From Tepidibacter aestuarii (GTDB taxonomy: Bacteria; Bacillota; Clostridia; Peptostreptococcales; Peptostreptococcaceae): 64,000 nt of DNA. The DNA lies in the NCBI RefSeq assembly GCF_934924865.1, contig NZ_OW235315.1, forward strand, positions 1,488,001 to 1,552,000, read 5' to 3'. Shown here in pieces: positions 31,230-61,278 of the stretch. The position numbers and the translations under genes are program-made. Within the stretch, counting starts at the first letter, position 1. Every line of letters begins with the position of its first letter. Below the pieces are notes generated by a model that did not search any database, had not been told where the DNA came from, and saw only the letters and a program-made list of their open reading frames with translations.

Positions 31230-31578
31230 GGGGGCGTAATGGTCTCGACGGGGGTTTGGAACTTAAAGTAGCGAGTCGTGTTTTACTGGTTCACGTAAAA
31301 ATCAGTACTTAAATATAAACGCAAACGATAATTACGCACTAGCAGCTTAATTAATGCTGCTCGTTCTACTAAGATCACCCGCAATCTTAAGTAGAGCGCC
31401 ATTTAAGCGGGGAACTGTCTTTAGGATGTCTTGACTGAAGATAGAATAATTAAGACTAGTCTTTTTAAAGCCTGCTGTTAGGCGTTAAAAAAGATGATAT
31501 AAAAATTAGCAGCTACACTCGTAGAAGCTTTAGGGAAAAAACTTCCGGACAGGGGTTCAATTCCCCTCGTCTCCACCA
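31230..31578 (+). ncRNA. ssrA: tmRNA
   Basis: The 5' end GGGGGCGTAATGGTCTCGAC pairs with the 3' end CGTCTCC followed by ACCA as a tRNA-like acceptor stem, and GGGGTTCAATTCCCC forms the T arm. The resume frame at 31321-31350 encodes ANDNYALAA and a stop, a typical tag ending in ALAA. It rescues stalled ribosomes. The gene begins 28 bases after rnpB and encodes its own CCA. Confidence 0.96.
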
Positions 31579-42804: not shown

Positions 42805-44592
42805 ATGGATAATACAAATTGCTTAATAAGTATATTAAATAAGCTAAAGACTTCCTCTAAGGAAGCAGTTGAAGGAATAGATAATTTTAGTGATTTTAAA
42901 GAGTATATGCATGTTAATAGGAAAGTTGAAACTGAGTTTAAGGAACTAGTTTATCAAGCAAATAATATTGAGAAACCTCAATTGATATTGCTGTGTGGTA
43001 GTGTTGGAGATGGAAAATCACATTTAATATCCTATTTCAAAAAGAATAAATATGAAATTATTAATAATTTTGACATTCATAATGATGCTACTGAAAGTTT
43101 AGATCCTAAGAAAACATCTATTCAAACTTTAAATGACGTATTAAGAGATTTTTCAGACGAGAATATTGGTAATAACACTAAGAAACTTATACTAGCAATA
43201 AATTTGGGCACTCTAACAAATTTCATTGATTCTGAATATGGGAATAGATTTACAAGGCTTAAAAAGTATATAGAAAATCAAAAGATACTTGAACAAGATA
43301 TAACGGATAATAAGTTTAATAAAGATAGCTATTTTCAATGTATAAACTTTACAGATTTTCACATGTATACTTTAACTAGTGAAGGACCTAAATCAAAGTA
43401 TATAAGAGATATTTTTGATAGAGTTTTTAGTAAAGAAGCTAATAACCCTTTCTATAATAAATATAAAGATGCTTGTTGTTCGGAATGCATAAACTATTCA
43501 AGGTGTCCTATAAAGGAAAACTATGAGAATTTATTAAGAGATGTTTTAAAAGAAAATATTATACAGAAATTAATTGAAACTATTGTTAAAAATAAAGTAA
43601 TTATTTCCACTAGATCATTATTAAATTTTATGTATGATATTGTAGTGGATTCTTCTTTAGATAATATAACAGAAGAAAAATTATTTAAGAAAATAATGAA
43701 ATATGATTTTATTGACTATTTGAAATCGCTTACAGCAAATATTATTTATGATAATAAAGATACTTCAAATATAATAGCTTCAATGAATGCTATTGATCCA
43801 TTAAATATTAGAAATGAAGAGTTGGATCAACTTTTAGTAAATCTAAATAATACTGAAAGAATTTGTGATTACTTTAAAAAATACGTAGATAATAATGAAA
43901 AACATTATTATTATAAGATTTTAGTTATAGATGAAAATTTGGAAGTTGTAAAAAGTGAGAAACTAAAAAAAGACCAAGCAGAGCTTAAACAAGCTATTAT
44001 AAAATTCTTTTTTAGAACAACATCAATTATGGGTAAGAATAATTTTAATATTTTTAATGATAAAGTATATAACAAATATATGAAATATCTATATAACTCT
44101 AATAGATTAGATAGACATGAAATGAAGGAACTATTGACATTTGTAAAAGAAGTTGTTTATAAATGGAATGGGACTAAATTGAAAAATGGACAAATACATC
44201 TTTCAATAGGTAAGAATCAAAGCAAATTTAAAGTTTATGAGCATTTAGAGTTTGATGGAAGAATTGAGGGTATTTCTAGAGAAGAAACAAATTTAAATAG
44301 GTTTATCAATACAATAAATCTTACTTACAAAACAAAAAATATCTTGGGGAAACTTGTAACTATTAATATAGATTACTTATTATTTGATCTAATGAGTAAG
44401 GTTAAAGGCGGATATAGACCAAATAAAAATGATAAGAATAACTTTATTAACTTTAATGATTTTGTTAAGAAACTACAAGAATATGGATCAAACAAGGAAA
44501 AAATATTATTTGATAGAAAAATAGGTGATAAAGTTCGTAAATTTGAATTTAAAATTGATGAATACGGCGATTATTGCTTAGTGGAGATATAA
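42805..44592 (+). CDS. dptF: phosphorothioate-dependent restriction protein DptF
   Basis: The 595-residue protein begins with a short leader and then the ATPase loop LILLCGSVGDGKSHLISYF near residue 61, followed by INFTDFHMYTL near 190 and a zinc-like cysteine group CCSECINYSRCP near 227-238, as in DptF. With DptG and DptH it forms the restriction arm that attacks DNA lacking phosphorothioate marks. It is the first of three tightly linked genes with a GAGGAG site; dptG begins two bases after its stop. The modification genes lie 10-18 kb downstream on the other strand. Confidence 0.9.
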   Translation: MDNTNCLISILNKLKTSSKEAVEGIDNFSDFKEYMHVNRKVETEFKELVYQANNIEKPQLILLCGSVGDGKSHLISYFKKNKYEIINNFDIHNDATESLDPKKTSIQTLNDVLRDFSDENIGNNTKKLILAINLGTLTNFIDSEYGNRFTRLKKYIENQKILEQDITDNKFNKDSYFQCINFTDFHMYTLTSEGPKSKYIRDIFDRVFSKEANNPFYNKYKDACCSECINYSRCPIKENYENLLRDVLKENIIQKLIETIVKNKVIISTRSLLNFMYDIVVDSSLDNITEEKLFKKIMKYDFIDYLKSLTANIIYDNKDTSNIIASMNAIDPLNIRNEELDQLLVNLNNTERICDYFKKYVDNNEKHYYYKILVIDENLEVVKSEKLKKDQAELKQAIIKFFFRTTSIMGKNNFNIFNDKVYNKYMKYLYNSNRLDRHEMKELLTFVKEVVYKWNGTKLKNGQIHLSIGKNQSKFKVYEHLEFDGRIEGISREETNLNRFINTINLTYKTKNILGKLVTINIDYLLFDLMSKVKGGYRPNKNDKNNFINFNDFVKKLQEYGSNKEKILFDRKIGDKVRKFEFKIDEYGDYCLVEI

Positions 44593-44594
44593 TT

Positions 44595-45983
44595 ATGAGA
44601 TATGAGATAAAAATTGATGATATTGAAAAGAATTATGTTAAAAAAGGTTCTTTTAAACATAATGCTGAAACTAAACCGTGGATGTTACCGTCTACTACAC
44701 AATATAAGGAAAGTCAAAAACCAGAAATAATAAATTTTACAGCGGCAGTGGGAGCGTTTTCAAGAAATTTAACAAAGAAAAAGGAATATACTAATTTTTG
44801 TATAGAAAAATATTACAATGATATTATTAGTCAAATTAGTATAGATAAGAAAAATAAATCTATACTTATTGATTTAATAACAGAATTATTTTTTCAAGGT
44901 GAAAATTTGATTATTTTTCATCCTAAAACCTTAAATTATATTGAGTCCACACATTTTAATAATAAATTGGGACAATTTTTATTTGATGTTTTATATAAAG
45001 AAGACCACGATATATTTAATTTGATAGCACAAGCCTACGGTAAGAATTCGAATAATATACTTATAAATTTAATGACAAAAAATCTCCCTCAACTTGATGA
45101 AAATCAAAATATTATAAATAAATATAAAAATTTCAACCCATACATAAGCAAAATCTTCATGGCGGATTTTAAATACTTACTTGAAAATAGTGATATGTTA
45201 ATAGATAATTTAGAAAAAATTTTAAAATTTTACTATATGTTTTATGTATCTCAATCTGCAATGATACTTAATAAAACATTTGAAGCAGATATTGAAAAAC
45301 CTATGAACGTATATTTTGGATTAGATTGGGAAAATACAGGGAAAGGGAGATTAAATACTGAGCTTGGTTGGAAAGTGGTAGAATCAAATGTTTTGAGACT
45401 ATTTTCTCACGCAAATGCATTACATTTAATAAATCATAATAATGAGAATAAAAAGTATTCATATGTAGAGTTAAAAGATAGAATTGATAGTATGAGTATT
45501 GAGGAAAAAATAGATTTTGTTAATGATGTAAATAATCTAATAGATTTTTATAAAGGATATATAATAGATGTGGAATGGGATAATTTTAAATATACTCCAA
45601 AATTTGAGAATGAATGTTATGATGCAGTATATAAGTTATTTAAAATTATAAACTATCAATTTGATAATTCGGGTAGAAAAAAGAGACAAAAGGATTATGG
45701 AACCAGATTTGTAGAGTTCTGCAAGGCGAATTTTCTAAGACAAAGAGGAAGGTATGGCTATATTTTTAACCTAACTGAAGAATATACTATTTTTTTAACT
45801 AAAATCTGTATAAAGGATAACGAAAAGATTAAATTAAAAGATTTATTTGTTGAGTTTAAAAAAAGAGGTATTTCATTAGATAATGATTCTAAGGTAAAAT
45901 TAATACAACTTTATGAAAAACTAAATATTTTAGAAAAGAAAAGTGATAGTGGGGATGCGCAATATGTCAAAAGAATTTTATAA
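44595..45983 (+). CDS. dptG: phosphorothioate-dependent restriction protein DptG
   Basis: The 462-residue protein starts best at ATG 44595 behind GTGGAG; a TTG at 44574 lies inside dptF. It has no common catalytic motif. I identify it by position between DptF and DptH and by matching DptG style and length, with conserved-looking segments such as YFGLDWENTGKGR near residue 241 and KKRQKDYGTRFVEFCKANFLRQRGRYGY near 360. It is a needed part of the restriction complex, but its molecular role is unclear. It overlaps dptH by 20 bases. Confidence 0.85.
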   Translation: MRYEIKIDDIEKNYVKKGSFKHNAETKPWMLPSTTQYKESQKPEIINFTAAVGAFSRNLTKKKEYTNFCIEKYYNDIISQISIDKKNKSILIDLITELFFQGENLIIFHPKTLNYIESTHFNNKLGQFLFDVLYKEDHDIFNLIAQAYGKNSNNILINLMTKNLPQLDENQNIINKYKNFNPYISKIFMADFKYLLENSDMLIDNLEKILKFYYMFYVSQSAMILNKTFEADIEKPMNVYFGLDWENTGKGRLNTELGWKVVESNVLRLFSHANALHLINHNNENKKYSYVELKDRIDSMSIEEKIDFVNDVNNLIDFYKGYIIDVEWDNFKYTPKFENECYDAVYKLFKIINYQFDNSGRKKRQKDYGTRFVEFCKANFLRQRGRYGYIFNLTEEYTIFLTKICIKDNEKIKLKDLFVEFKKRGISLDNDSKVKLIQLYEKLNILEKKSDSGDAQYVKRIL

Positions 45984-48900
45984 TTATTTAGCTAAAAAGG
46001 TAATACAGTATTTTAACTTAGTAGGGGTTAAAAATGGAGAGAGATTTGATATACAATTTGAAAGAGAAGATGAAGTTAGAGCATTATATGATGAGATAAA
46101 AATTGTTGGAGAAACTAATATTTTTAGTTATAAGGCGGCAGAAGATGTTGAAGAATACAAAACCATTAGTTTCAAAGTGTCAGATATTGATATCATAGTT
46201 GCTGCTACTATTGATGGAATTCAACCTGATTATCTAACCAAACTTAGAAATGAAGTTAGTTCTAATGAAGATGATAAATTTAGAAATACTGCCATTATAT
46301 TTATTCATAATACTACATTAGATAGTATTATTGGTGGGGCAACTAGCTTTAGAAAAGAAGGAATGCCATTTCACATAGTATCAATTACAAATGATATAAA
46401 AAAAGATTTGGAGAAAAGTGAATTAACATCTGGTCAAAAAAATATAGTTAATTTTGAATTGGAAAAGAATAATTCTTCAAATGATGAAGTGACGTCCTTA
46501 TTGCAATTCGAGGAATTATTGAAAGTAATAAATAAAGGCTTTATAGATAAAGCAGAGTATAAAAACTTTGGTCTTTTTTTTGATAATCAATTAGAGAATT
46601 TTAGCGGAAATGAAGTTGAAACTAGAATAAAACAAAATGCTGAAATTTTTAGTAAGGTTGACTCTATACATAAGTTTCAAGGGGATGCTCCAACAGCTTT
46701 AGAAAAATTTTTGGATGAAAAGGGTGTAGATTTACTAAGTGATCCAAAAACATGGGAAGATCTAGATTTTTCTACAATAAAGGCATCTATTGAAAATAAA
46801 AAGAAAACTAAAAAGGTTCAGTTTGAAGGATATGATCTTTTTAATATTGAACAAGAAAATTTTTGGGATAAGCCTAATAGAGAAACTGTTGCAGGAAATA
46901 GAAAGAGAAGGATAATTATATTTAATCCTAATAATGAAACGAAATTGCAGTTTTCGATTAAATTTGACGAAAGAATATCTCAAAAGGAAATTTCTGTAGA
47001 TAAAAATCAAGAGGCCACAGTTAAAGCTTCTGGAAAAAAAATAATAGTAGAAATAGAACATGAAATTGGTAAAGTCTCTTTTAATACTATAAAATTAAAG
47101 GCCAGTGAAAACTATGAATTTAAGATAGTTATTATAGACTTAATAAATAATATCTTTAAAGATACTGAAATACAAACAGCTTTTAACATAGGTAAGGTAG
47201 ATAAGGAGAATGTAATTACTTTAAATACTAAGAGTGATGTATTAACTCTTAATACATATGAAGTTTCCATAGAAAACTATGAAATTAAAGAAAATAGAGA
47301 AGATATATACATTGAATCACTTGAGTCAAAAATAGTTATTTTAAATGACGTAGATATAGATGAAAATACGGATTTTATTAGAGTAAATGTAAATATTCAA
47401 GGAGTATGTATTCCACTTGCAATCAAGGATGAAGGACATGTCACTGTTCCTATTGGGGGATATAATGTATGGATTCAAAAAAGGGAAGAAAGAAAAGATT
47501 TTAAATATATTGATAGTAAACTAGTTCAAGGTAGTAGGACTTATTATCCTAAAGAGGATTTAAAGGTTAATTTAAAAAGAGAAGAACAATTTATTAATGA
47601 GGGCTCATTATTTTTTGTTGAGAAAAATAGTGAATTGTATGGAGAAAACTTGGAAGTTCCAGGCTCATTAAAAGAAGCATATGCATCTTTAATTAATTAC
47701 TATAAAGTAAATAGATTGCTTCCAAGCTTAGCTTATTATAATGAAGAATTATCGCAATTAGCATTTGAATATGTCAATGAATATTTAAATACTATAGATA
47801 AACTAGAAGAAGGCGGGGATGTAAAAAGCATCCATAGGGATTTGGTTAAAGTAGGAACTATAAAAGTAGAAAATGGAGAAAATCAAATTTTACTTACACC
47901 GTTACATCCTATAAATGTAATGTATCAAATAGAAATACAGAAGCAAATTGGTAGTGAAAGATTACATGAAAGGTTGGCAAAAAAATTAGAGTCATTATAT
48001 TTATTACCGTATATTGCAGAATATAAAACACTTTATAAACCTATAGAACAAAATCATTCAAAAGAATGGAAGTATTACGTCAAAAATGATACCTTAAAAT
48101 ATAAAAGCTCAAGAAAATTTGTAGCAAAGTTAGTTAAAGAAAAAATTGAAGAATTCGTTCAACATTTTTCATATTTGTTTGAATTTTCTTCTAAATCACC
48201 TATTAAAATAAATCTAATAAATACTGGTGATTCAAAAGAGGTTCTTCAAGGGATTATTGCTTATTATATTTCTGAACTTAAAAAAAATATTAAAATTAAT
48301 GACCTAAAGGAAATATGTATTAATATCTATTCAGAGGAAGATACAAATGTATTTGAAGAGTTATCTTTTTTTCAGACCGTTGATGAAGTTGAAAATAATC
48401 TGAAATTAAATTTAGAACCATTAGGAATTGGCAAGAACTATTTAAAAGAAGATATATTATCGATTTGTAGAGAAAAAATAAAGTTCTATAGAAAAGACAT
48501 TAATAGTGATAGGTATGAATATTGCCATATTACATTTTATGAAATGGACCAAAATTTAGATGAAAAAGATAGCAAAATGAATGCTATGATTACAGGAGTA
48601 TCATTAAACGGGATTATTTCAGGTGTTCCATCTAAGTTTATAAATGATACATATAGAACTGGTTTTGGGAATAGATATATGGATAACTCAGAAAAAAATT
48701 TACTTTTAAGGGTAGCCACTGGTTTAAATTCTTTGTATAGAACTGTTCAAAATGAAGTCTCTTATACAAAACTTGAGTGTAGGACAACTATTATCTCTGA
48801 ACAAGATAATGAAAAGCTAGATAAAATATATAACTCATCTAATTGGGTAACTTTTATAGAGCCGAAGGTAGACTTAAAATTCTTTAAAGACAATGCTGTA

Positions 48901-51201
48901 GACAAAGGCTTACTTATTATACATTATAGTGATCAATATACAAGTTCAAGTGGATACGATTCTATAACAGTTACAAGAAAATCTGAGCAATATGAATTAA
49001 TTATAAAAGAATTTCTGGAAGATAAAGAAGTTAATATTACGCAGGATTCTGTAGTTGACGTAATTAATTGTTTCAATGCTGTCAATGGGGATTGGTTACT
49101 AAGATTAATATCAAGTAATGGACAATTTCCAAAAGAAAAGATAAGTATTATTTCAGCTATAAAACTAAGCATGGCATATTTCTATCATAAAGATATAATA
49201 TGGATTCCTATTTCACTTGAAGAGGTTCTAAGAGTATCTAAAGGCGCAGGACTGAGTGGATCAGATGGGTTATTTTCTGTTAAAAATTTAAAAGGCGAAG
49301 GACAATATTCTGATGACTTACTGTTAATAGGTATTGAAGTGTGCAATGAAAATTTAAAAGTGCATTATTATCCTATAGAAGTAAAGATAGGGGATAATTC
49401 AAGTACTGTAATTAAAAAGGCTAAAAAGCAAGCCTATAAGACTAGAAATTATCTTGAAAAACATCTTATCGAAGTAGATGATGAAGACGAGACTAGAAGG
49501 TTTGGTAAAAAGATGTATAGGAATTTTATGATGCAGTTAGCTATAGTAAGTGCAGAAAAAATGAAGCTTTATAATATATGGGAAGAACAAAATTGGAATT
49601 TAATAATTGATTCAGATACAAGAAAAAAATTACTCAATGATGACTATAAAATTGTTAATGATTTAGATGAACTAATAGGTAGAGGTGCTGTTATGTCCTT
49701 TAAAAAAGGAATAACATTTAATGATGAAGCGAAAGAAATTGAAGTAACTAAAGAAGAGCTAGGGGCAGAATATGATGAAGAAGAATTTGCAAAGGGAAAT
49801 AAATTTTTGGAAATTATTTTCGGGGAATCACAAGGCTATAATAATATAATTAGACCTATGGAGAGTATTAAACAGGATTTTGTAAATGGACAAAGTGATT
49901 TTGAAAAAGAAAAATTGTTGGCATATAAATATTACAGGCCTACTAGTAAAGAAGATATTAGAAATGAAGATGTTGAAGTTGAAGAAGAAGAGATTACTGA
50001 TTTTAGTAATGCAATTACAGGTGGTATTAAAGAAGAGGTTGCAGCAGTTATTGAAAATCAATTTGAAATTAGTAGACCAGAAGAAGAAAGTATAAGAGTA
50101 TTACTAGGATCTAGTAAAGGTAAAGATATTTATTGGGAGTTTGGAAATAAGGGTTTAGGAAATAGGCATTTATTGATATCTGGGAAATCGGGCCAAGGTA
50201 AAACTTATTTTATTCAATGTTTATTGTTAGAATTATCACGAAAAGGAGTTCCAAGTATAATATTTGACTATACTGATGGGTTTAAAAGTTCTAAGTTAGA
50301 GCCTGAATTTAAAGAAATTATGGGAGATAATTTGAAACAATTTATAGTTGCCAAAGATAAGTTTCCGATCAATCCATTTAAGAAAAACCAGAAAGAGCTA
50401 GATGAAGATCTTTATATTGATGAAGATAGCATTGATATAGCAGAAAGAATAAAATCTGTATTAGGATCAGTATATAAACAATTAGGAATACAACAATTAA
50501 ATGCTATATATCAAGCAACAATTAGTGGTTTATATAAACATGGGGATAAAATGAATTTTATATCTCTTAGAGATGAATTAGAAGAAGATAATAGTGGGTC
50601 TTCTAAATCAGCAATAGGTCAGCTAAATCCTTTAATAGATAAAAATCCTTTTGATAATACAAAAGAATTTAATTGGAAAGATATATTAGATAGTGATGGA
50701 AAAGTATTTATAATTCAACTAACAGGTTTTACAAGAGATGTTCAATTAATTATAACTGAATTAATTTTATGGGATCTATGGTATTTTACTGTTCAAAATG
50801 GAAGTAAGGATAAGCCATTCTCGGTAATCCTAGATGAAGCACAAAATTTGGATTTTGGAGATAATTCACCATATACTAGGATTTTAACAGAAGGAAGAAA
50901 ATTTGGATGGTCAGGATGGTTTGCAACTCAATTTATTAAAGGACAAATGAGTACTAGTGAAATTAATAGATTACAAAATGCTGCACATAAAATATATTTT
51001 GCACCACCTGATGAAGAAATATCTAGTATTGCAAATACGTTATCAACCAATGCTGATGAAAAGAAAGATTTAGAACGAGGGCTTATGAGATTGCAAAAGG
51101 GAGAATGTATATCGTATGGCCCATGCAAAACTTTAAATAGTACATTAAGAAATTCTATAGAAAAGGTAAAAATTTCATCGTTGAAAGATAGGACATTATA
51201 A
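45964..51201 (+). CDS. dptH: phosphorothioate-dependent restriction protein DptH, HerA-like ATPase
   Basis: The protein has about 1745 residues. ATG 45964 is chosen because GTGGGG lies about 10 bases before it; GTG 45943 and ATG 45955 are in frame but worse placed. Most of the length is a large region without recognised motifs. The C-terminal 350 residues are a HerA/FtsK-type ATPase: Walker A ISGKSGQGKTYF near 1406, Walker B FSVILDEAQNLDFG near 1620 and ATQFIKGQM near 1655. It is expected to move on or act at DNA as the motor of DptFGH restriction. It overlaps dptG by 20 bases and ends at a weak hairpin. At more than 1700 residues it is the largest gene in the window. Confidence 0.92.
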   Translation: MSKEFYNYLAKKVIQYFNLVGVKNGERFDIQFEREDEVRALYDEIKIVGETNIFSYKAAEDVEEYKTISFKVSDIDIIVAATIDGIQPDYLTKLRNEVSSNEDDKFRNTAIIFIHNTTLDSIIGGATSFRKEGMPFHIVSITNDIKKDLEKSELTSGQKNIVNFELEKNNSSNDEVTSLLQFEELLKVINKGFIDKAEYKNFGLFFDNQLENFSGNEVETRIKQNAEIFSKVDSIHKFQGDAPTALEKFLDEKGVDLLSDPKTWEDLDFSTIKASIENKKKTKKVQFEGYDLFNIEQENFWDKPNRETVAGNRKRRIIIFNPNNETKLQFSIKFDERISQKEISVDKNQEATVKASGKKIIVEIEHEIGKVSFNTIKLKASENYEFKIVIIDLINNIFKDTEIQTAFNIGKVDKENVITLNTKSDVLTLNTYEVSIENYEIKENREDIYIESLESKIVILNDVDIDENTDFIRVNVNIQGVCIPLAIKDEGHVTVPIGGYNVWIQKREERKDFKYIDSKLVQGSRTYYPKEDLKVNLKREEQFINEGSLFFVEKNSELYGENLEVPGSLKEAYASLINYYKVNRLLPSLAYYNEELSQLAFEYVNEYLNTIDKLEEGGDVKSIHRDLVKVGTIKVENGENQILLTPLHPINVMYQIEIQKQIGSERLHERLAKKLESLYLLPYIAEYKTLYKPIEQNHSKEWKYYVKNDTLKYKSSRKFVAKLVKEKIEEFVQHFSYLFEFSSKSPIKINLINTGDSKEVLQGIIAYYISELKKNIKINDLKEICINIYSEEDTNVFEELSFFQTVDEVENNLKLNLEPLGIGKNYLKEDILSICREKIKFYRKDINSDRYEYCHITFYEMDQNLDEKDSKMNAMITGVSLNGIISGVPSKFINDTYRTGFGNRYMDNSEKNLLLRVATGLNSLYRTVQNEVSYTKLECRTTIISEQDNEKLDKIYNSSNWVTFIEPKVDLKFFKDNAVDKGLLIIHYSDQYTSSSGYDSITVTRKSEQYELIIKEFLEDKEVNITQDSVVDVINCFNAVNGDWLLRLISSNGQFPKEKISIISAIKLSMAYFYHKDIIWIPISLEEVLRVSKGAGLSGSDGLFSVKNLKGEGQYSDDLLLIGIEVCNENLKVHYYPIEVKIGDNSSTVIKKAKKQAYKTRNYLEKHLIEVDDEDETRRFGKKMYRNFMMQLAIVSAEKMKLYNIWEEQNWNLIIDSDTRKKLLNDDYKIVNDLDELIGRGAVMSFKKGITFNDEAKEIEVTKEELGAEYDEEEFAKGNKFLEIIFGESQGYNNIIRPMESIKQDFVNGQSDFEKEKLLAYKYYRPTSKEDIRNEDVEVEEEEITDFSNAITGGIKEEVAAVIENQFEISRPEEESIRVLLGSSKGKDIYWEFGNKGLGNRHLLISGKSGQGKTYFIQCLLLELSRKGVPSIIFDYTDGFKSSKLEPEFKEIMGDNLKQFIVAKDKFPINPFKKNQKELDEDLYIDEDSIDIAERIKSVLGSVYKQLGIQQLNAIYQATISGLYKHGDKMNFISLRDELEEDNSGSSKSAIGQLNPLIDKNPFDNTKEFNWKDILDSDGKVFIIQLTGFTRDVQLIITELILWDLWYFTVQNGSKDKPFSVILDEAQNLDFGDNSPYTRILTEGRKFGWSGWFATQFIKGQMSTSEINRLQNAAHKIYFAPPDEEISSIANTLSTNADEKKDLERGLMRLQKGECISYGPCKTLNSTLRNSIEKVKISSLKDRTL

Positions 51202-51629
51202 TTTATTTTAATTCACTATCGTCATTAAAACAGGTAACTAACTGCATCATAATGGTAGTGAATTTTTGGATTAGGACAATACTATCACTCAATTACTTAG
51301 AAATTTTTCAACTGGATAAAATAATTATGCAAATTATATTTCAACTTGGGTAATTCATAATATTGATGATTTTAGTAATAAGGTTGTAAGTATATATTTA
51401 ATACTTAAAGTAAACAAGACGATGATAATTTGCTTAATAAGATAAAGCGCTTGAGCATTATAGCTTGGTCAAAATGAGATAATAATAGGGATATTGAAAA
51501 CTTTAAATGTTGACGACCTTATTATATTTATTAAAGAATAATTATGAAATATTCTTAAGTATATAAAAATAGTATAAGTATGGAATTTTAATTAAAAATA
51601 TATATAATAATGTAGCAGGAGGACGTTAT
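51202..51629 (+). other. 428-bp spacer after dptH with a weak hairpin
   Basis: The 9-bp arms AATTCACTA (51210-51218) and TAGTGAATT (51256-51264) with a 37-base loop are followed by TTT, perhaps a weak terminator. The rest shows no gene. The AGGAGG-type site at its end belongs to the next gene. Confidence 0.5.
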
Positions 51630-52589
51630 ATGAAGATTACTGTAATAAAAGATGAATGGAATAATAAAGCATGTTATGTAGGTTTCATACAATTTGAGGA
51701 CATTGGTAAGATTATTGATGCAACTCAAGATCAGGCAATGAATAGATTAGTAAAGGAAAAAAGAGTAGATAATATTTCTACATACATACAAAAAGAAAAG
51801 AAAAAATGCTTTTTTCCACCAGTGGTGCTAAACTGTAGAAAAAGATTAGTCTTTAAAGAAATTAATAATAATGTATGTGAAATCGATATAGAAAAAAAAT
51901 CATTAACTATTATAGATGGACAACATAGAATAAATGCTATTAACAAAGCTATGGGGACTTGTAATGAAATTAAGAATAATAATTTGCCATTTATATTAAT
52001 TGAAAATATAGAAGAACAAGAACATAGAAATTTGTTTAATTTAATAAATGAAAACTCAGTAAATGTAGAATCAACCGTTTCAGCTCGATTCGATATAAGT
52101 AAAGAAAATTTATTTGGATTAAGATTTGTTCATGAAGAAATGGAACATGGGCAAATAAATATAAAAGATTTGATTGAATGGGAAGCCAAACAATCAACGG
52201 ATAAGGTATGTTATTTATTTATAACTCAAGTTAATAAAAAATTTATAAATCATATGCACACTACTGATGATGAAGAAATTTACAGCATATTAAAGTTGTT
52301 TTGGATTACATATTTTAATAAAATTATTAATTTAACAGGATGTGCAAAAAAGTTTTATGTTAAAAAAGTTACTTTAATGGCTATATGCAAACATATTTTA
52401 GATAATTCTACCTTAATGGAAGAATTAGAAGAAAAGATAACAAAAGCAATAGAAGAGTTAATATTAGATGAATTTAAGAACGAATATAAAGACGGATATA
52501 CTCAATCTAATAACACATATAATAATATTATTGAATTTTTAAAGAATGAAAAAGAATGTATAAGCGATAAAGAAAAAATAGCAATTTAG
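51630..52589 (+). CDS. second DGQHR-domain protein (DndB-like paralogue)
   Basis: The 319-residue protein has the DGQHR motif in LTIIDGQHRINAINKA near residue 96, with FFPPVVLNC upstream and HRNLFNLINENSVNVES downstream as in DGQHR proteins of the DndB group. It is distinct in sequence from the dndB product at 60184-61278. DndB proteins are nonessential partners or regulators of phosphorothioation. An AGCAGGAGGACG site precedes the ATG. It lies 428 bases after dptH and 53 bases before the HEPN-like gene, so the two probably form their own unit. Confidence 0.8.
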   Translation: MKITVIKDEWNNKACYVGFIQFEDIGKIIDATQDQAMNRLVKEKRVDNISTYIQKEKKKCFFPPVVLNCRKRLVFKEINNNVCEIDIEKKSLTIIDGQHRINAINKAMGTCNEIKNNNLPFILIENIEEQEHRNLFNLINENSVNVESTVSARFDISKENLFGLRFVHEEMEHGQINIKDLIEWEAKQSTDKVCYLFITQVNKKFINHMHTTDDEEIYSILKLFWITYFNKIINLTGCAKKFYVKKVTLMAICKHILDNSTLMEELEEKITKAIEELILDEFKNEYKDGYTQSNNTYNNIIEFLKNEKECISDKEKIAI

Positions 52590-52642
52590 CAGAAAAAAAT
52601 TGCTATGATTTAAAAATAAAATGAATAATATAGGGAGGGCGT

Positions 52643-53866
52643 ATGAAAGAGTTTTGTCATTTAATTGTAAAATTTAAGAATAAAATTGATTTGGAAATAA
52701 GGGAAGAATTATATAGTCAAATTAATATTTATAAAGCGGAGTATAATAATTTATATTTAATAACATTAGAAGAAAAAATAGAAGGGAGCAAAGGATTTGA
52801 ACATATCAGAGAAGAATATATAAGTGTACTAACTAACTTAAATGCGTATGTTTCAATATTATATGATAGCATTTCTGTTAAAAGACATAAAGATATTTCT
52901 AACACAATATATGAATTAGAAAGAAGCCTAAGAAACTTAATAGAGATAGTATTTTTAGATAACCGAGGAATTGATTGGTTTAAAATAGCTGAGTATCAGA
53001 ATAATGATAAAAGAGACAGGCGTAAAAATAGAGCTGAATTTGTTACATTGTTAGAAAATCCATTAGATGATTTGGATTTTAAGCAATTAAATAAGTTTTT
53101 AACAGATACAATTGCTGTAGATAATGAAAAAACTATGGTTAAGAGATTAGATGAATTAATAAATAAAGTTGATAATTTATCTGAAATGAATATTAAAAAT
53201 ATTGAAAGTTTAAATGAATGTGTAGAAGAAATAAGAAATTTAAAAGATATAATTACTAATAAAAAGAAGAAATCATTTAAAGCTGATGAAATATTTTTAC
53301 ATATAAATGAAAAAATCAATAGTGAATGGAAGACATTGTACAATGTTAGAAATTTATGGGCTCATAATAATTGTATTATTACTAAAGATGAATTTGATGC
53401 TTATAAAATTTTATCAAAATCGGTACTGAATAAAATTGATACGGAGATAACACTATTAATTTTCTTTAATGAAAATGATACTAATATTTTGTTAGATGAT
53501 AATTCTAGAAAGATAATAATGAGAAGATACCCATTTGAAGGAATAGAGGAATGTAAATTTGAATTTATAATAAAAGATGGAGAAAAAAGTCTAATTATAG
53601 TTAAAGAAAATTTTAATTATAAGTTTTTTGATGCTATTATTGATGAAGTATGTGCTGATCAATTAAGTTCATTAAAGAATAATCCGTTTATATTATATAA
53701 AAATAAAAGTATTTTAGAAATATTTATTAATAAATTAAAGGATTTTGATATCGATGAGATTAAAGACATTTTTAAAAAATCTGATATATTTGAGGTTAAG
53801 GAAGAGGAGGGAGATTTATTATTAATATCTAAGGAAATAGATAATTATTTGAATAAAATATTTTAA
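52643..53866 (+). CDS. unrecognised protein with HEPN-like Rx4H motif
   Basis: I do not recognise this 407-residue protein as a named family. It has YELERSLRNLIEIVFLDNRGIDW near residue 92, like the first helices of Swt1-type HEPN domains, a helical, lysine-rich linker (about 155-215) and VRNLWAHNN near 234, where RNLWAH fits the Rx4-6H motif of HEPN ribonucleases. The C-terminal third (about 260-407) is mixed and acidic. The site AGGGAGGGCG precedes the ATG. It is paired with a DGQHR protein inside a phosphorothioate island, which suggests an accessory effector, perhaps an RNase. Activity is inferred from one motif. Confidence 0.65.
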   Translation: MKEFCHLIVKFKNKIDLEIREELYSQINIYKAEYNNLYLITLEEKIEGSKGFEHIREEYISVLTNLNAYVSILYDSISVKRHKDISNTIYELERSLRNLIEIVFLDNRGIDWFKIAEYQNNDKRDRRKNRAEFVTLLENPLDDLDFKQLNKFLTDTIAVDNEKTMVKRLDELINKVDNLSEMNIKNIESLNECVEEIRNLKDIITNKKKKSFKADEIFLHINEKINSEWKTLYNVRNLWAHNNCIITKDEFDAYKILSKSVLNKIDTEITLLIFFNENDTNILLDDNSRKIIMRRYPFEGIEECKFEFIIKDGEKSLIIVKENFNYKFFDAIIDEVCADQLSSLKNNPFILYKNKSILEIFINKLKDFDIDEIKDIFKKSDIFEVKEEEGDLLLISKEIDNYLNKIF

Positions 53867-54845: not shown

Positions 54846-56027
54846 CTAAAATATAAGATTTGATATGGAAGAATACTTAGATAAGGTCAAGCGTATAAAT
54901 TGTGAACTAACAGATTTTTTACCAATCTCATCTATAACATAAGATGGTTCACTAATTCCACAAGCAGAACCAGCAGAAATAGCTATTCTATCAGATAAAT
55001 CCTTAATAAACATCTCATTAATTATACCAGGAATAATCATACCAATAACTCCAGGAATCTTATTATTTTCATCACCTAAAAATTCAATACCAGGATATTT
55101 TTCATTAAGTAAATTTTTCACTTCAGTTTCTAAAAGAACTATTTTTTTCATATATTCGTCCATATCTCTTTTAGCTATTTCACAAGCTTTACCAAAACCA
55201 ACAATATTATGAACAGAATGAGTACCGGCTCTATATCCATATTCTTGCTGTCCACCATGGATCAAAGCGGTTATAGGATTATGTGTGTAGCTATTTTTTC
55301 GTATAAAGGTAGCACCAACACCTTTAGGACCATAAAGCTTATGGGCTGAAAAGGATAGAAAATCTACTGGTATTTCGCATACATCTATATTGATTTTACC
55401 AAGAACTTGAGTAGCATCAGAATGAAATAATATATTTTTTTCTTTTGCTATAGAACATAAATTTTCAATTGGATTTAAAGAACCTATTTCATTATTTCCC
55501 CAAACAAAAGAAGATAAAATACTTTTTTCAGTAATAGAGTTTTTAAAATCTTTTTCACTAACTTGAGCAAACTCATTCACTTTAAGGAAAGTAACATCAA
55601 AACCTCTGTCTATTTTTTTTGAAGTATTTTTTAGCTTTACAAATTTGCTTACAGCATTACTTTTACTTCTGTTATCAAATACTTCTCCATTTAAAAATTT
55701 ACAAGTTTGAAGAACAGATTTATGCTCAACAGTAGATGTTATTATATGGTTTCCTTTATTTTCATAAAATCTTTTATAATCTGCTACACCTTTAATAATA
55801 AAATTATTACTTTCTGAAGCACCTCCAGTAAATATCACTTCCTCAGGCTTCGAATTTATTAAAGCAGCAACTTTTTCACGTGCTTCTTCAACAGCTTTCT
55901 CAGCATTAACAGCTAAAGTATAATGTCTACTAGAAGGATTGCCATACTCCTCTTTTAAAAAGGGAAGCATAGCATCTAAAACTTCAGGGTCAATAGGTGT
56001 AGTAGCACTATTATCAAGATAAATCAT
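54846..56027 (-). CDS. dndA: cysteine desulfurase DndA
   Basis: The 393-residue PLP enzyme has YLDNSATTPID at the start, STVEHKSVLQ near residue 97, SFSAHKLYGPKGVG with the PLP lysine near 230 and the active-site cysteine in ISAGSACGIS near 350. It takes sulfur from cysteine and passes it to DndC. It resembles IscS/NifS, but the place at the end of dndBCDE marks it as the dedicated DndA. It overlaps dndE by 4 bases. The extra charged segment near residues 112-147 is longer than in a minimal NifS. Confidence 0.9.
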   Translation of the reverse strand: MIYLDNSATTPIDPEVLDAMLPFLKEEYGNPSSRHYTLAVNAEKAVEEAREKVAALINSKPEEVIFTGGASESNNFIIKGVADYKRFYENKGNHIITSTVEHKSVLQTCKFLNGEVFDNRSKSNAVSKFVKLKNTSKKIDRGFDVTFLKVNEFAQVSEKDFKNSITEKSILSSFVWGNNEIGSLNPIENLCSIAKEKNILFHSDATQVLGKINIDVCEIPVDFLSFSAHKLYGPKGVGATFIRKNSYTHNPITALIHGGQQEYGYRAGTHSVHNIVGFGKACEIAKRDMDEYMKKIVLLETEVKNLLNEKYPGIEFLGDENNKIPGVIGMIIPGIINEMFIKDLSDRIAISAGSACGISEPSYVIDEIGKKSVSSQFIRLTLSKYSSISNLIF

Positions 56028-56413
56028 AGGGATACATCTCCTTTAATTGCAACATGTTTTAAAAATTTCTCAAGATTTCCTCCAGAATAATCATATAGTT
56101 TAGATAGTAATTGAGCACCTTTATCTATATGTTTTTTGGTATAGACAGGATAATACTCATCATCAGTTAAATGTCTTTGTAAGTTCATTTCTATTAAAGC
56201 CTTATATATAGTGTCAAATTCACCAGTAACAGTAGATCTCTGTAGCTCTAGTCCATTTGTGTCTGTATCTTCAAAATCGTCAATAGAATTTGAATCTCTA
56301 AGAGATAATGATATAGCAATTTTGCATAGTGCAAAAGGTTTAAGTTTGCTACTAGAGCTTATTTCTTCAAAAATTTCTTTAGTATTCTTTGCTGTTTTTA
56401 ATCTAAATCCCAT
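56024..56413 (-). CDS. dndE: DNA sulfur modification protein DndE
   Basis: The 129-residue protein opens with GFRLKTAKNTKEIFEEI and contains ALCKIAISLSLRD and GELD-like basic segments consistent with DndE, and has the expected length of about 110-130 residues. DndE binds nicked DNA and is needed for phosphorothioate modification with DndC and DndD. It lies 2 bases downstream of dndD and overlaps dndA by 4 bases, so the genes are tightly coupled. Confidence 0.88.
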   Translation of the reverse strand: MGFRLKTAKNTKEIFEEISSSSKLKPFALCKIAISLSLRDSNSIDDFEDTDTNGLELQRSTVTGEFDTIYKALIEMNLQRHLTDDEYYPVYTKKHIDKGAQLLSKLYDYSGGNLEKFLKHVAIKGDVSL

Positions 56414-56415
56414 AA

Positions 56416-58575
56416 TTACACCTCAAAATATCCTTTTTTAACTTCAGTCTTTCTTTCTTCTTCATTATAAAGCAGTAAGTATTCATGACAAGTATAAGGC
56501 TTAATAATTTCATAAAGATTAGAATCAATCTCTTCATTGGTAGATAGAAGAATAACTTGCTTACTTATATTTGGAAGATAGTTAATTGTTAATGATTTTC
56601 TATGAGTTTCATCTACTCTAGCATAAGGGGTATCAATTATAAATGGTATTTCTATTTTAGAGCTTTTTATTAACGCCCAAATTAAACAAAGTATATATAT
56701 TTGTTTTTCGCCTTTAGAGAAGTCATTAACATTAACTTTTGTTCTTAAACTTATATTATCAAATGATGGGTTAATATTAAATAAATCAAAAAATTCATCG
56801 AAAGACTTAGCATTATATTTTAATAAAAGATCTTCTATAAATTTTAAACCATATTTTTTAACAATATCCTTGACCCCTAGGTTATTAATAATATTTAAAA
56901 TCTCTAATGTGCTATAATTTTTTGAAACATAAAGAGTAGATTCGAAATTAGAGTCAATAACAATACTAGATACATAATCACTTTTTCTTATTATAGTACT
57001 AAAAATTTCTATGAAATTGTTTTCTATTAACTTTAATTTATCCTTAGCTAATTTACTTAGTAAAGTATCGAGATAGTCAACTACTTTAGATGAAAGATTT
57101 AAAATATTATCATCTTGCATAGAAGAAGTATAAGTATTTTTAGCTCTGTTATATTTATAAATTGCCGTTTTTTCTTTTTCTAAATAAGAATCAAGATCAT
57201 AATTTAAAGATATTATTTCATTTTCAGTAGAATGAATTTTATCAGTTATATTGCTTATATTTTTCAAGTAATTGTTTACAAAGTCACCTGTAATTGAAGA
57301 ATTAAGCTTATCTCTTTGAGTTTTAATATCTTGAGCTATTTCTTTAAGTCTATTATAGTTATCAAGTAATTTGCTTTTTAATTCTTTTTCACCATCAATT
57401 ATGTTATTAAGAGTAGATAGCACATTATTTTGTTGTTCAGAGGATAGCATCAATAATTCTCTTACCATAGAAAGCTCCTTTGTATCGAACATGTTGTTCA
57501 GGATTGTAACTGCAAGTTCATTATACTTATTTTCATCAATTTCTGATATATTATGAGAAGAAAGTGATTTGCCGATAACATAACCTGAAAGTTTATTTTT
57601 AATGCTTTTATAAGAAGAAATAGAGTTTTCTTTTTCAATTTGGCTCATTGTATCTTTTAATAAATCAGTAATTAATAGAAAAGGTAATATTTCATTACAA
57701 TAATCCTTAATATACTGATTAATAGACGTTCTTTCGTTTTCAAGAGAGAGTATCTTAGAATTTATAGCCTTTTCTTCGTTTTCTAGTATCCCTCCAGAAG
57801 TTTTAAAATCTTTTTCTAATAAACTCTTTTCCATAATTAAGGTATTGAGACTATCTTTCTTTTTTAATATTTTTGTTTTTATGCTTTTAATGTTATATTG
57901 AATGCTGTTTAAGTTTTTTAATGTTTCATCATATTGAGTTTCAACATCAGCAAGACTACCATTTTGTTTAGTAATTTGCCTTTGAAAAGATAGAAGGTGT
58001 TTCTTTAAAACATTAAAAGTATCATAATTAAATAATTGTAATACAGATTCTTTCAAGTTATTTGATGAATTTTTACCATTGAAGAATTCACTAAGTTCTT
58101 CACCATCAAAAAAGAAAAAATCAAATAGAGAACGCGGAATATTTGATTGAAGATATTTATTAAAAAATTCAACTTCATCTTCAGTTAATAATATATCATT
58201 TTTAAAAACTTCAAAGCTCTCTACTATTTTTTTGTTAGCATATATCCAATTTCTATTAAGGATATATTTATTTGTTTTGGTTCCTTCAAAGAAAGTCAAA
58301 GTAACTGAAAGATTGCAGTCAACGGTTTCATTTTTAAAAGCATTATTATTTATATTATTCTTAATCTTATCTAAGTAGGTAGGATTAATTCCTAAGTATC
58401 CATAACTGCTAGGTCCGTAAATACAAAGCTTAATAGCTTCAAATAGAGTAGATTTACCAGAACCATTTTCTCCACCTATTAAAATAATATTTTTATTCTC
58501 CAAAGGAGTAAAAGAAAATTCAGTTTCATCTTCATAGGATCTAAAGTTTTTCATTTTTATACTATTAATTATCAT
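56416..58575 (-). CDS. dndD: DNA sulfur modification ATPase DndD
   Basis: The 719-residue SMC-like protein has Walker A ILIGGENGSGKSTLFEA near residue 31, a FFFFDGEELSEFF segment near 152 as in DndD, long coiled-coil parts (about 190-300 and 380-480), the ABC signature DFSKGEKQIYIL near 620 and Walker B PFIIDTPYARVDETHR near 648. It hydrolyses ATP and probably opens or nicks-and-holds DNA during sulfur insertion. It overlaps dndC by 11 bases and lies 2 bases before dndE. Confidence 0.93.
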   Translation of the reverse strand: MIINSIKMKNFRSYEDETEFSFTPLENKNIILIGGENGSGKSTLFEAIKLCIYGPSSYGYLGINPTYLDKIKNNINNNAFKNETVDCNLSVTLTFFEGTKTNKYILNRNWIYANKKIVESFEVFKNDILLTEDEVEFFNKYLQSNIPRSLFDFFFFDGEELSEFFNGKNSSNNLKESVLQLFNYDTFNVLKKHLLSFQRQITKQNGSLADVETQYDETLKNLNSIQYNIKSIKTKILKKKDSLNTLIMEKSLLEKDFKTSGGILENEEKAINSKILSLENERTSINQYIKDYCNEILPFLLITDLLKDTMSQIEKENSISSYKSIKNKLSGYVIGKSLSSHNISEIDENKYNELAVTILNNMFDTKELSMVRELLMLSSEQQNNVLSTLNNIIDGEKELKSKLLDNYNRLKEIAQDIKTQRDKLNSSITGDFVNNYLKNISNITDKIHSTENEIISLNYDLDSYLEKEKTAIYKYNRAKNTYTSSMQDDNILNLSSKVVDYLDTLLSKLAKDKLKLIENNFIEIFSTIIRKSDYVSSIVIDSNFESTLYVSKNYSTLEILNIINNLGVKDIVKKYGLKFIEDLLLKYNAKSFDEFFDLFNINPSFDNISLRTKVNVNDFSKGEKQIYILCLIWALIKSSKIEIPFIIDTPYARVDETHRKSLTINYLPNISKQVILLSTNEEIDSNLYEIIKPYTCHEYLLLYNEEERKTEVKKGYFEV

Positions 58576-60187
58576 TTTCTATCTCCTCAACTATACTTTT
58601 GTGTAGATGTTTTTGATTCAAGATTTTTGAAATAGATTTATCTAATACTGTTTTGTTTGTAAAATGCTTATTTTTATTAGTTTCTATAAGTAAAGTAGAT
58701 ATTAAATTATCTGGAAGATTAAACTGTTTATTTAGATCTTTTATGTTAAATAAAGTTTCATCATCAAAAATAGGTTTTTTAAAATCATGCCAAGGCAACT
58801 TTTTTCTTAAGATATTATAATAAATATCAACTAATGAACGACAAGTCAAGTCTTCTTCATCATCCCAAATTTTATCAATAACTTCAAGTTCTTGAATAGT
58901 TATCAGTGGAAAGTCAATGTATTTATCCATTTCTTTTTGAGTTTCTAATAGTTTTTGTAATATTTCTTTTCTAGCTTTAAAATTAAAAGGTCCATATCCA
59001 AGCACATTTATATAACTACCTTTATCACTTTCAAAAACTTTAGAAGGATCAATTTTATAATTATCAATTAAAGGTAATAATTCTAAATATATTTTTTCTT
59101 TATCTGAAGACTCTTTAGAGCCTTCTTGAATGTCATTAGCAGAGTTCCTCAAATCAATATATTCTTTATTTCCTTCATTAAAAATATAGTTTTTATTTAA
59201 TTCTAAGTTGTAGTTTATAGGTAAATCATCCAATAGTAACTTTTTATAATAATGGTTTCCATCTCTTCTATATTGTCTTCTATATTCATGCTTATCTCTT
59301 ATACTAAGCAACCAATTTCTGAAGTCAAGAAGAGGTTGTAGCCATTCTTCGCCATTTTTTATAAAACCAGTTAAAGACTTATCTTCCTTAACAACAGTAC
59401 AAGACCAGCAACCAAAACGAGAATTACCACAAGAAGGTGTATCTACTTGACCTTTAGCATTTTTAGTAATAGTGAAAGGACATTCTCCACCATCTGAACC
59501 CATATATAAATCTTGTAAATCGTTATTATTTGTCCCCCAAGGAGTAACACCATTGTCACTTAAAAGTATCTTCCATACCTCATCTGTTGTTAACTCTACA
59601 ATAGGATTATACACATATGTATTGTTAATAGTATTATGAGGTGTAAATAGATACCCTTCTATTTCTCTTTTTTCTATTCTATTTTTTCTTGCTATACTTT
59701 CAGTTTTTCTAACTCCAAGTAATAATACAACTTCGCCACTTTCTTTAACCTTTGTTTCAATAAAGTCATTAGAAGGTTGAATCTTTAAACGTTCAGTACA
59801 CCATCTAAATCTAATTGAAGTAGGAGTCGGTAAACCCTTTCCAATTATATTAGTCCAAAAGGTATTATTATATTTAGGGTATACCATATGTGATGAAATA
59901 GGCAAGGAAGTATCTTTTACATATTCATTTATAGCGTTATAATTAGCCTGTAGATAACCTAAAACTATTGGATTTTCTATTAATGTATCAGAAGAAACTA
60001 TATATATATGTTTATGTCTTTCCTCTTCAGGCAAGCTCTCTAACATTTTAAAAGCAAGCTGAACAACAACAGTACTGTCTTTACCACCACTATATCCAAT
60101 AATCCAAGGTCTATTATCATTTTTATATACCATTTTCATCTCTTCTAATATAAAATTTAAAGTATCTTTAAAGTCGTTTTTCATCAT
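58565..60187 (-). CDS. dndC: phosphorothioation-dependent PP-loop protein DndC
   Basis: The 540-residue protein has the PP-loop SGGKDST in WIIGYSGGKDSTVVVQLAF near residue 28, a RWCTERLKIQPS segment near 148 and the Fe-S cysteines in TPSCGNSRFGCWSC near 262, as in PAPS-reductase-like DndC. It activates the DNA backbone or sulfur with ATP and carries sulfur from DndA to DNA through an Fe-S cluster. It overlaps dndB by 4 bases and dndD by 11 bases. The start has two ATG codons in a row (60187, 60184). Confidence 0.93.
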   Translation of the reverse strand: MMKNDFKDTLNFILEEMKMVYKNDNRPWIIGYSGGKDSTVVVQLAFKMLESLPEEERHKHIYIVSSDTLIENPIVLGYLQANYNAINEYVKDTSLPISSHMVYPKYNNTFWTNIIGKGLPTPTSIRFRWCTERLKIQPSNDFIETKVKESGEVVLLLGVRKTESIARKNRIEKREIEGYLFTPHNTINNTYVYNPIVELTTDEVWKILLSDNGVTPWGTNNNDLQDLYMGSDGGECPFTITKNAKGQVDTPSCGNSRFGCWSCTVVKEDKSLTGFIKNGEEWLQPLLDFRNWLLSIRDKHEYRRQYRRDGNHYYKKLLLDDLPINYNLELNKNYIFNEGNKEYIDLRNSANDIQEGSKESSDKEKIYLELLPLIDNYKIDPSKVFESDKGSYINVLGYGPFNFKARKEILQKLLETQKEMDKYIDFPLITIQELEVIDKIWDDEEDLTCRSLVDIYYNILRKKLPWHDFKKPIFDDETLFNIKDLNKQFNLPDNLISTLLIETNKNKHFTNKTVLDKSISKILNQKHLHKSIVEEIENDN

Positions 60188-61278
60188 AGTTGCCTTCCTT
60201 TTTTCTTAATATCATTTTCAAGTTTTATTTCATCTTTTGTTAATGGCAAATCAAGTTTTTTCTTTATAAGATTATTTGTAAGTTTTATATAGTAAGCACT
60301 TTTAACAATTCTTCCATTTGCACCTATAACTCTATTTTGCCAATCATCAAGATTAGTTCTATTCCAATTGATATGCTTGATATTTTTTAAAATATCTTTC
60401 CATTCATTTGGATGATTCCTATATAGATAATTACCTACAAAGCCTAGGGCCTCCAGAACTACACCGCTTGAACTAATAAACTCTCCTCTGAACTTTGCAG
60501 GACTAAGTTCTTTAGAAAATACTAATTGCCATTCACTCATACTATCACACAAAACATCCCAAAATTCCTTAACAAAACTAACAGATTCTTTATCAGTTAA
60601 TTTTAATTTATTTAGTAACTTTTTATTAGTTTCATGTATGCTACTTAAAGCAAATAGTTTTGCTGAAAATTTGGATAAAGAAGGATTTTCTTTGTCCGTA
60701 TAGTATTTTAAATTCTTATTTGTTTCCACTAAGTCTTTAGAAATAGTCGCAATTGGATCTCTTGAATCATACAAGATTCCAATTGACTTTGAAACATTAA
60801 CAGCATGTTTATTTAAATCTGCAAATATCTGTTGGCTACGTTTCAATCCTTCATCTATAAAGATAACAACAGATATTGTTTCATTAGAAAGAGAAGGATC
60901 TGCCTTTAAAGCTTCTTCAATAGCAGCTCGTCTATGCTGTCCATCGTTAATTAGCAGTCTACTATCCATAGAAACTTTGAGGATTCCTATGTTCTCGTCT
61001 AATTGACTGTCAATTGGTGAAAAATCGAAATTTCCATCAATTGATGAAGTCAATGAAGAAAATACATAATCTTTAGGATTATCGATTATGTATTGAGCAA
61101 TCTCAGGTATACGATTTTTATTTAGAATTCTTTGAGCCCTATGTTCAGGCGGTAACTCCTCTTCATTAAATATAAATAGTTTAGATAATATTGAAAGAGG
61201 GCACATAATGACAAAAAAGTCTCTATTTGCCTGTTTTCCTTTCATTGCAGGAAATGAGTAAAAAAAATTATTATACAT
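60184..61278 (-). CDS. dndB: DGQHR-domain protein DndB
   Basis: The 364-residue protein has LLINDGQHRRAAIEEAL near residue 110, the DGQHR hallmark of DndB, with LSKLF near 30 and FADLNKHAVNVSKS near 170. DndB is not essential for modification but changes its level and site choice, and in Salmonella a homologue has been reported to repress its own operon. It is the first gene of the minus-strand dnd operon with an AAGGAG site. Two identical palindromes flank its promoter -10 box. Confidence 0.9.
   Translation of the reverse strand: MYNNFFYSFPAMKGKQANRDFFVIMCPLSILSKLFIFNEEELPPEHRAQRILNKNRIPEIAQYIIDNPKDYVFSSLTSSIDGNFDFSPIDSQLDENIGILKVSMDSRLLINDGQHRRAAIEEALKADPSLSNETISVVIFIDEGLKRSQQIFADLNKHAVNVSKSIGILYDSRDPIATISKDLVETNKNLKYYTDKENPSLSKFSAKLFALSSIHETNKKLLNKLKLTDKESVSFVKEFWDVLCDSMSEWQLVFSKELSPAKFRGEFISSSGVVLEALGFVGNYLYRNHPNEWKDILKNIKHINWNRTNLDDWQNRVIGANGRIVKSAYYIKLTNNLIKKKLDLPLTKDEIKLENDIKKKGRQL

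Follow-up and report, generated by a model that had tools for sequence, protein, structure and literature searches.

The gene pair and its predicted proteins

We analyzed a stretch of 64,000 nucleotides from Tepidibacter aestuarii (contig NZ_OW235315.1, positions 1,488,001 to 1,552,000; hereafter the window), in which two adjacent genes lie inside a DNA phosphorothioate (PT) island, between the dptFGH genes and a dnd operon. The first, a DGQHR-domain gene (51630..52589, + strand), encodes a protein of 319 residues and is a putative sensor or regulator; the second, a HEPN-like gene (52643..53866, + strand), encodes 407 residues and is a putative ribonuclease (RNase) effector. Both open reading frames (ORFs) were borne out at these coordinates and on this strand by the ORF list and its translations. 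An earlier note on this DNA, made from the letters alone, had their positions, their lengths, and their motifs right (IDGQHRINAI in the first protein; RNLWAH and the Swt1-like segment SLRNLIEI in the second).

The DGQHR protein matched TIGR03187, the model of the DGQHR domain (91.7 versus a cut-off of 58.85), and PF14072, the DndB/DGQHR family (88.4 bits). All 22 aligned rows, 21 of them distinct and the window row among them, matched TIGR03187 at E ≤ 0.001, and the DGQHR pentapeptide, encoded at 51915..51929 (+ strand; residues 96-100), was invariant in 22/22. Three narrower models stayed far below their cut-offs, including the DndB equivalog TIGR03233 (36 bits versus 328), TIGR04172 or DGQHR_dnd_1 (23.7 bits versus 450), and the DpdB model NF041060 (16.2 bits versus 300). 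In the phylogenetic tree, the protein fell into a clade apart from DndB (support of 99/100 and 100/99); some long branches of this tree are unsure, and the tool warned of a possible false join of plasmid rows with the DGQHR clade. These results agree with the claim of the earlier note that a second DGQHR protein, different from dndB, is present. Its N-terminal domain is predicted to adopt the ParB/sulfiredoxin fold, followed by a helical C-terminal part, and the predicted structure resembled PadC and ParB, and weakly SspE, in a structure search. A C-terminal HNH domain (DUF1524/GmrSD_C) was not matched by either protein of the pair at E ≤ 1 in a Pfam scan.

For the second protein, 17 sequences were aligned, comprising eleven from a first search (the window's included), two from a second search, and four from the loci. 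Invariant in all 17 were Y69, D75, Y90, L92-E93-R94, R97, and L99-I100-E101, as well as W229, Y233, R236-N237, and W239-A240-H241-N242. Two motifs have been set out in a HEPN survey (PMC3710099; this and the other papers cited are drawn on for their accessible parts): Rx4-6H with a polar residue after the arginine, and the acidic Ex3[KR]. The former is present in 17/17 as RN-x-WAH, with asparagine as the polar residue (RNLWAH, R236-H241, in the window; 53348..53365, + strand), and the latter in 17/17 as E93 plus R97 (52919..52933, + strand). Since the DGQHR and HEPN motifs are invariant across the aligned rows, they stand above chance.

The Pfam model HEPN_Swt1 (PF18731) matched 7 of the 17 family members at E ≤ 0.1 (best, 0.00031). 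The window protein itself scored 16.4 bits (E = 0.012) against a cut-off of 27.5, so that its HEPN membership is not proven by the family model alone. Six distant Swt1-like relatives from genome searches, one each in the loci L019 to L024 (L and G numbers are our handles for loci and genomes), were aligned as a second set; four of them were scanned, and the one of L024 passed PF18731 (32.3 versus 27.5) with the other three below it. Comparison of the two sets by hhalign gave a probability of 98.4% and an E value of 8.8e-15, indicative of homology between the profiles, and placed RNLWAHN on the RxxxAHN of the relatives. According to the structure model, the protein would consist of an N-terminal domain (residues 1-78), ferredoxin-like by structure match, HEPN-like helices at about 76-274 (76-108, 146-156, 162-179, 187-208, 223-241, and 248-274), and a C-terminal alpha/beta part.

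One homologue, P0032 of Bacillus salitolerans, is named an ApeA-like HEPN protein by one source. At L020:4019-7613, a gene with GmrSD_N and Schlafen AlbA_2 domains adjoins the Swt1-like HEPN gene, and dpt and dnd genes are absent from the locus; L020 is a parallel ParB-type/HEPN neighborhood.

A swap slot between dptH and dndA

The layout dptF-G-H-DGQHR-HEPN facing a convergent dndA-E-D-C-B was repeated in Paenibacillus vini (L003), G451 (L016), and G729 (L017), all of them Paenibacillus-order genomes. In Paenibacillus sp. Root52 (G393), a contig break separates the DGQHR gene from the HEPN gene, with dptFGH before one (L018) and the dnd genes after the other (L002). The pair sits between dptH and dndA in 5/5 genomes with readable context. 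The DGQHR gene follows dptH in the same direction in the window, L003, L016, L017, and L018, and the loci of the window, L003, L016, L017, and L002 also contain a canonical dndB. The spacing between the two genes is 53, 27, 20, and −32 bp in four loci, and in Priestia megaterium they bear consecutive locus tags (PME_23360 and PME_23370).

Co-occurrence was examined in 393 + 392 genomes drawn from larger orders, which were searched with the HEPN alignment and a DptH model. Strong HEPN matches (>300 bits) were found in 4/785 genomes and DptH in 33/785, and all 4 fell within the 33 (hypergeometric 2.6e-6, relatedness ignored). A phylum search of 398 genomes outside the 785 returned one strong copy, that of G393 again, along with a weak relative in G967. 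A strong copy of the pair away from dnd was not found in the genomes searched; the HEPN query P0001 had no matches in the plasmid or phage collections searched, and neither did query A1 in the viral contigs searched.

Distances among the DGQHR proteins and among their HEPN partners correlated over nine pairs (r = 0.958; permutation p = 5e-5), of which four were read directly, G393 over the contig break, Priestia by locus tags, and three on weaker assignment (C. perfringens by species only). The correlation was r = 0.960 for the six better-supported pairs (9/720 permutations) and r = 0.973 for the five read in genomes (4/120 permutations). The co-occurrence check named in the earlier note has therefore turned out in favor of a conserved pair, and these data indicated that, in the genomes read, the DGQHR and HEPN genes form a unit linked to Dnd/Dpt.

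What lies behind dptH was then counted with 33/33 DptH genomes kept, including G475, which ends at a contig edge, and G604, which is cut within its cargo gene. The DGQHR-HEPN pair occupies the slot in four (the window, G393, G451, and G729), and GmrSD-type genes occupy it in six (G508, G518, G246, G242, G180, and, partial at the contig end, G604). Two of the six GmrSD-type genes were searched against solved structures, and the best solved relative of both was DndI (PDB 9JFL; E = 4.4e-13 for L078 and 1.9e-10 for L067). One genome (G589) carries a RelA/SpoT-type gene plus a DGQHR gene, with a Sir2-type gene on the opposite strand; behind dptH at L061:10139-12898, a RelA/SpoT-domain gene is followed by a DGQHR gene, which there stands with a different effector-type partner. 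A ParB/sulfiredoxin-type gene (DGQHR or GmrSD_N) is thus present in 11/33 slots.

Further cargo comprises HATPase plus methyltransferase genes (2/33; G627 and, also with Sir2, G472), an SF2 helicase plus a DndD-like ATPase (2/33; G699 and G480, with Pfam run on G699 only), AbiE (1/33; G069), AIPR (1/33; G183), a Mrr-type gene plus HATPase (1/33; G096), and an adenosine-deaminase-type gene plus a 934-residue protein, RADAR-like by eye (1/33; G199). At L086:2894-9765 behind dptH, the genes encode an adenosine-deaminase-type protein of 984 residues and proteins of 934 and 368 residues; the label RADAR-like was given by eye, with an A_deaminase match only. Six genomes (G427, G413, G731, G489, G461, and G460) carry a second DndD-like gene plus a small ORF on the dnd strand, the small ORF having been tested in G427 only. 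This arrangement, a second DndD-like ATPase with a small ORF between dptH and dndA, is seen in L058, L059, L060, L072, L073, and L074, and the small ORF of L058 is DndE-like at 22.0 bits versus a cut-off of 25. The slot is without cargo in 5/33 (G659, G109, G057, G663, and G483), dnd is absent downstream of dptH in 2/33 (G423 and G434), and the contig ends in 1/33 (G475). In G109 (L081:906-6050), an in-frame stop breaks dptH, and cargo is absent behind it.

Closely related DptH proteins are followed by different cargo. L016 and L018, both with the pair, share 87-90% DptH identity with L062 (empty), L076 (GmrSD-type), and L066 (HATPase plus methyltransferase), and L003, also with the pair, shares 90% with L063 (GmrSD-type). 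Third-position G+C of the pair in L003, L016, and L017 is 0.227-0.259, below each flanking dpt or dnd gene measured per locus; in the window, the pair does not differ clearly from its flanks. These results indicated that cargo exchange is quick relative to the dpt backbone and that a swap slot lies between dptH and dndA, which the earlier note had not anticipated.

In the window, the flanks were identified by profile matches, which bore out the placement of the pair between dptFGH and dndBCDEA in that note. On the + strand lie dptF (42805..44592; TIGR03238, 243.8 bits versus a cut-off of 50), dptG (44574..45983; TIGR03236, 164.5 versus 20), and dptH (45943..51201; TIGR03237, 745.1 versus 620.65). 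The convergent dndA-E-D-C-B operon (54846..61278, − strand; ORFs and profile matches) borders the slot on the other side. Its models exceeded their cut-offs for DndB (469.2 versus 328), DndC (436.1 versus 290.4), and DndD (365.8 versus 245.85), and matched below them for DndE (54.2 versus 71.85) and DndA (374.2 versus 480).

Within the gap between dptH and the DGQHR gene, a DptH C-terminal tail survives as a decayed remnant with frameshifts (51287..51453, + strand; tblastn up to E = 8e-14). Residues 1-1330 of the window DptH are 41-48% identical to L003, L016-L018, L061-L071, and L075-L085 and 36% to L086, as opposed to only 32-34% to L058-L060 and L072-L074. At residues 1401-1752 the relation is reversed, with 21-27% to the first DptH group versus 48-57% to L058-L060 and L072-L074. 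Judged by these identities, the HerA/FtsK C-terminal part belongs to another DptH type than the N-terminal 1330 residues, and on the simplest reading the HerA/FtsK end would have been replaced through recombination, with the old tail left in the gap. HerA/FtsK capture has been inferred in PMC10853773, and the remnant is most simply read as a visible scar of it.

Directly past dndB lies a McrB-like AAA gene (61859-63217, labeled by eye), followed by an ORF truncated by the end of the window (61859-63998 for the two); the island may possibly hold another restriction-type system here. A tmRNA gene is located at 31230-31578, about 11 kb upstream of dptF, and a second copy of its 3′ end was not found in the window.

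Candidate roles of the pair

What the analysis established is the gene layout, the conserved pairing, the HEPN motifs, the prediction of a ParB-type fold, the slot position, and the swapping of cargo. Because the pair lies where a dndI-type gene can stand, has the same class of sensor fold, and carries a separate HEPN protein, we favor a two-gene effector cassette in the dndI position of the DptFGH operon, namely, a PT-gated, split DndI analogue armed with an RNase. This preference is tentative, and we put the reading at slightly short of an even chance. The DGQHR protein would be a relative of DndB that senses DNA in a nucleotide-dependent manner and has a ParB/sulfiredoxin fold, and its physical partner would be a Swt1-like HEPN endoribonuclease. 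The sensor would hold the RNase off as long as host DNA is properly phosphorothioated and would release it on meeting PT-free invading DNA or upon PT loss, the direction of this gating being inferred along with the RNase activity, the use of nucleoside triphosphates, and PT gating as such. Once released, the RNase would stop growth as a backup to DptFGH. The pair would thereby work as DndI does, with two proteins in place of one and an RNase replacing the HNH nickase.

Several observations weigh against a split DndI analogue. The HEPN model is of low confidence at residues 101-170 (block means of 41-67 in the predicted local distance difference test), and no solved HEPN chain was found among the 50 matches listed in each of two structure searches, so it is the sequence evidence, and no structural match, that carries the HEPN assignment. 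The reading in the earlier note, a DGQHR sensor or inhibitor tied to a HEPN effector, is supported in part: both motifs and the Swt1-like profile homology speak for its HEPN claim, and the helices of the model are compatible with it, but the window protein scored below the PF18731 cut-off. The DGQHR protein scored 20.1 against GmrSD_N (PF03235, DUF262; cut-off, 33.2), and the site motif-matched to Y25 of DndI is an invariant Met37 in the DGQHR rows. Co-transcription with dptH is uncertain in the window, since a gap of 428 bp separates dptH from the DGQHR gene. Few genomes carry the pair, and G199 has DptH together with other slot genes and a weak HEPN relative on another contig. The weak HEPN relatives (L019-L024 and L006; 22 to 40 bits) reside in loci without dpt or dnd genes, L006 and L024 being short at 2.5 and 3.6 kb, and the wider HEPN family is therefore not Dnd-specific. 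Nor can PT linkage be proven from the position in the slot by itself, because slots also hold AbiE, AIPR, Sir2, Mrr, and RADAR-like genes, for which we know of no PT dependence.

The absence of dpt and dnd around the distant HEPN relatives also speaks for an autonomous abortive-infection cassette, in which the DGQHR protein would sense a phage cue unrelated to PT, the HEPN RNase would shut the cell down, and co-location would merely reflect a recombination hotspot. An independent defense cassette of this kind is the main rival and a serious one, since the slot elsewhere holds GmrSD/DndI-like, AbiE, AIPR, Sir2, RelA/SpoT, and RADAR-like genes; we regard it as credible, if on the whole rather unlikely. 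It would fit the many unrelated defense-type genes in the slot (AbiE in L079, AIPR in L080, Sir2 in L077, HATPase plus methyltransferase in L066, Mrr in L084, and RADAR-like in L086), the differing cargo behind DptH proteins that are 87-90% identical, and the third-position G+C of the cargo, which is lower than in the flanking genes measured in L003, L016, and L017. However, the strong HEPN match lies at the slot in 4/4 positive genomes of the 785 and likewise in P. vini, the P0001 and A1 queries were unmatched in the plasmid, phage, and viral sets, and the partner is itself a DndB/DGQHR family member.

Two further explanations are less probable. DndB has been described as an ATP-dependent negative regulator (PMC10853773), and a toxin-antitoxin-like module could be built on this, with the DGQHR protein as DNA-binding repressor or antitoxin (compare the reported repression of dnd by DndB), the HEPN protein as toxin, and the pair stabilizing the island. 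The order of the genes, would-be antitoxin first, and their short spacing are in keeping with it, but strong copies away from dnd were lacking in the genomes searched, and frequent cargo exchange does not suggest strong addiction. Typical type II toxin-antitoxin proteins are, moreover, smaller than 319 and 407 residues, and we consider such a module improbable. Alternatively, the second DGQHR protein could tune dnd/dpt expression like an extra DndB, with the HEPN protein trimming operon transcripts and no killing involved. Such a regulator of PT homeostasis would agree with the PF14072 match, but the protein belongs to a clade separate from DndB, a canonical dndB is already present in each of the five loci listed above, and relatives carry effector-type genes in the place of the pair; we consider this explanation very improbable.

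Beyond the split DndI analogue itself, the dptH-dndA interval might be a plug-in bay of Bacillota PT defense, in which sensors of the ParB/sulfiredoxin fold, whether DndI-like or DGQHR, serve again and again with exchangeable effectors (an HNH nickase, a HEPN RNase, or a RelA/SpoT-type synthetase), and in which the DGQHR protein reads PT, perhaps via the invariant Met37, and so gates the HEPN RNase. We offer this broader scheme as a conjecture and consider it doubtful. The PT-based effectors DndFGH, DndI, and SspE attack DNA according to the literature cited here; a PT-linked RNase cassette, if true, would give backbone-sulfur immunity an arm that targets RNA and shuts the cell down. The defined slot behind dptH also supplies a small set of candidates for PT-linked effectors, which can be compared on one DptFGH backbone. 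To our knowledge, a PT-gated effector that targets RNA would be the first of its kind.

Relation to known systems

The dndI gene of Salmonella is co-transcribed with dndFGH and constitutes, together with iscS-dndBCDE, a separate phage defense; DndI combines a ParB-like DUF262 domain with an HNH nickase, PT DNA stimulates its ATPase so that it leaves self DNA, and it is harmful without PT (PMC11662687). The statement in the earlier note that canonical systems need neither gene takes no account of dndI, which lies in dndFGHI and is known to encode a PT-based effector (PMC11662687). SspE has the same fold, and its DGQQR motif is required for GTP hydrolysis (PMC13251355). Like the pair, DndI (IscS-DndBCDE-DndI; PDB 9JFL) has a position in the dndFGH operon, accompanies PT modification genes, and possesses a ParB-like N-terminal domain, which bears a DGQxR motif as the DGQHR protein does (PMC11662687); GmrSD-type genes fill the slot in 6/33 DptH genomes, and the two of them that were searched are closest to DndI among solved structures. 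In contrast, DndI is a single polypeptide with an HNH nickase and DGQQR, whereas the pair consists of two genes with a predicted HEPN RNase and DGQHR. The shared position follows from gene order; of the other DndI hallmarks, DUF262 was matched only below its cut-off, the motif is not DGQQR, and an HNH match was not listed at E ≤ 1.

DndB (TIGR03233) has the DGQHR/PF14072 family in common with the DGQHR protein, which differs in its score, in its own clade, and in occurring alongside a true dndB. TIGR04172 denotes DNA phosphorothioation-associated DGQHR protein 1 and, like the window protein, is a DGQHR satellite beside dnd genes; it differs in its score as given above, and a HEPN partner is not mentioned in the accessible part of PMC3226654. 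As to the HEPN protein, Swt1-like proteins have in common with it the Rx4H motif with asparagine after the arginine, Ex3R, and profile similarity, and their pairing with ParB-type proteins, in fusions and operons, has been documented (PMC3710099). The window protein is distinguished from these Swt1-like proteins and ParB-HEPN fusions by separate genes, a DGQHR-type partner, the Dpt/Dnd site, and a score below the PF18731 cut-off. HEPN endoribonucleases that flank Dnd modification loci or are joined to DndF have been reported as suicide backups (PMC10853773; see also PMC3506569). The accessible part of PMC10853773, which does not extend to its supplementary neighborhood lists, names neither a DGQHR-HEPN pair nor a slot after dptH, and neither the pair nor a swap slot behind dptH came up in the literature searches, which covered paper listings and the texts cited here rather than supplementary tables. 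ParB-HEPN pairings, like HEPN genes next to Dnd, have been published before, and what is new here is the place of the pair, a swap slot behind dptH.
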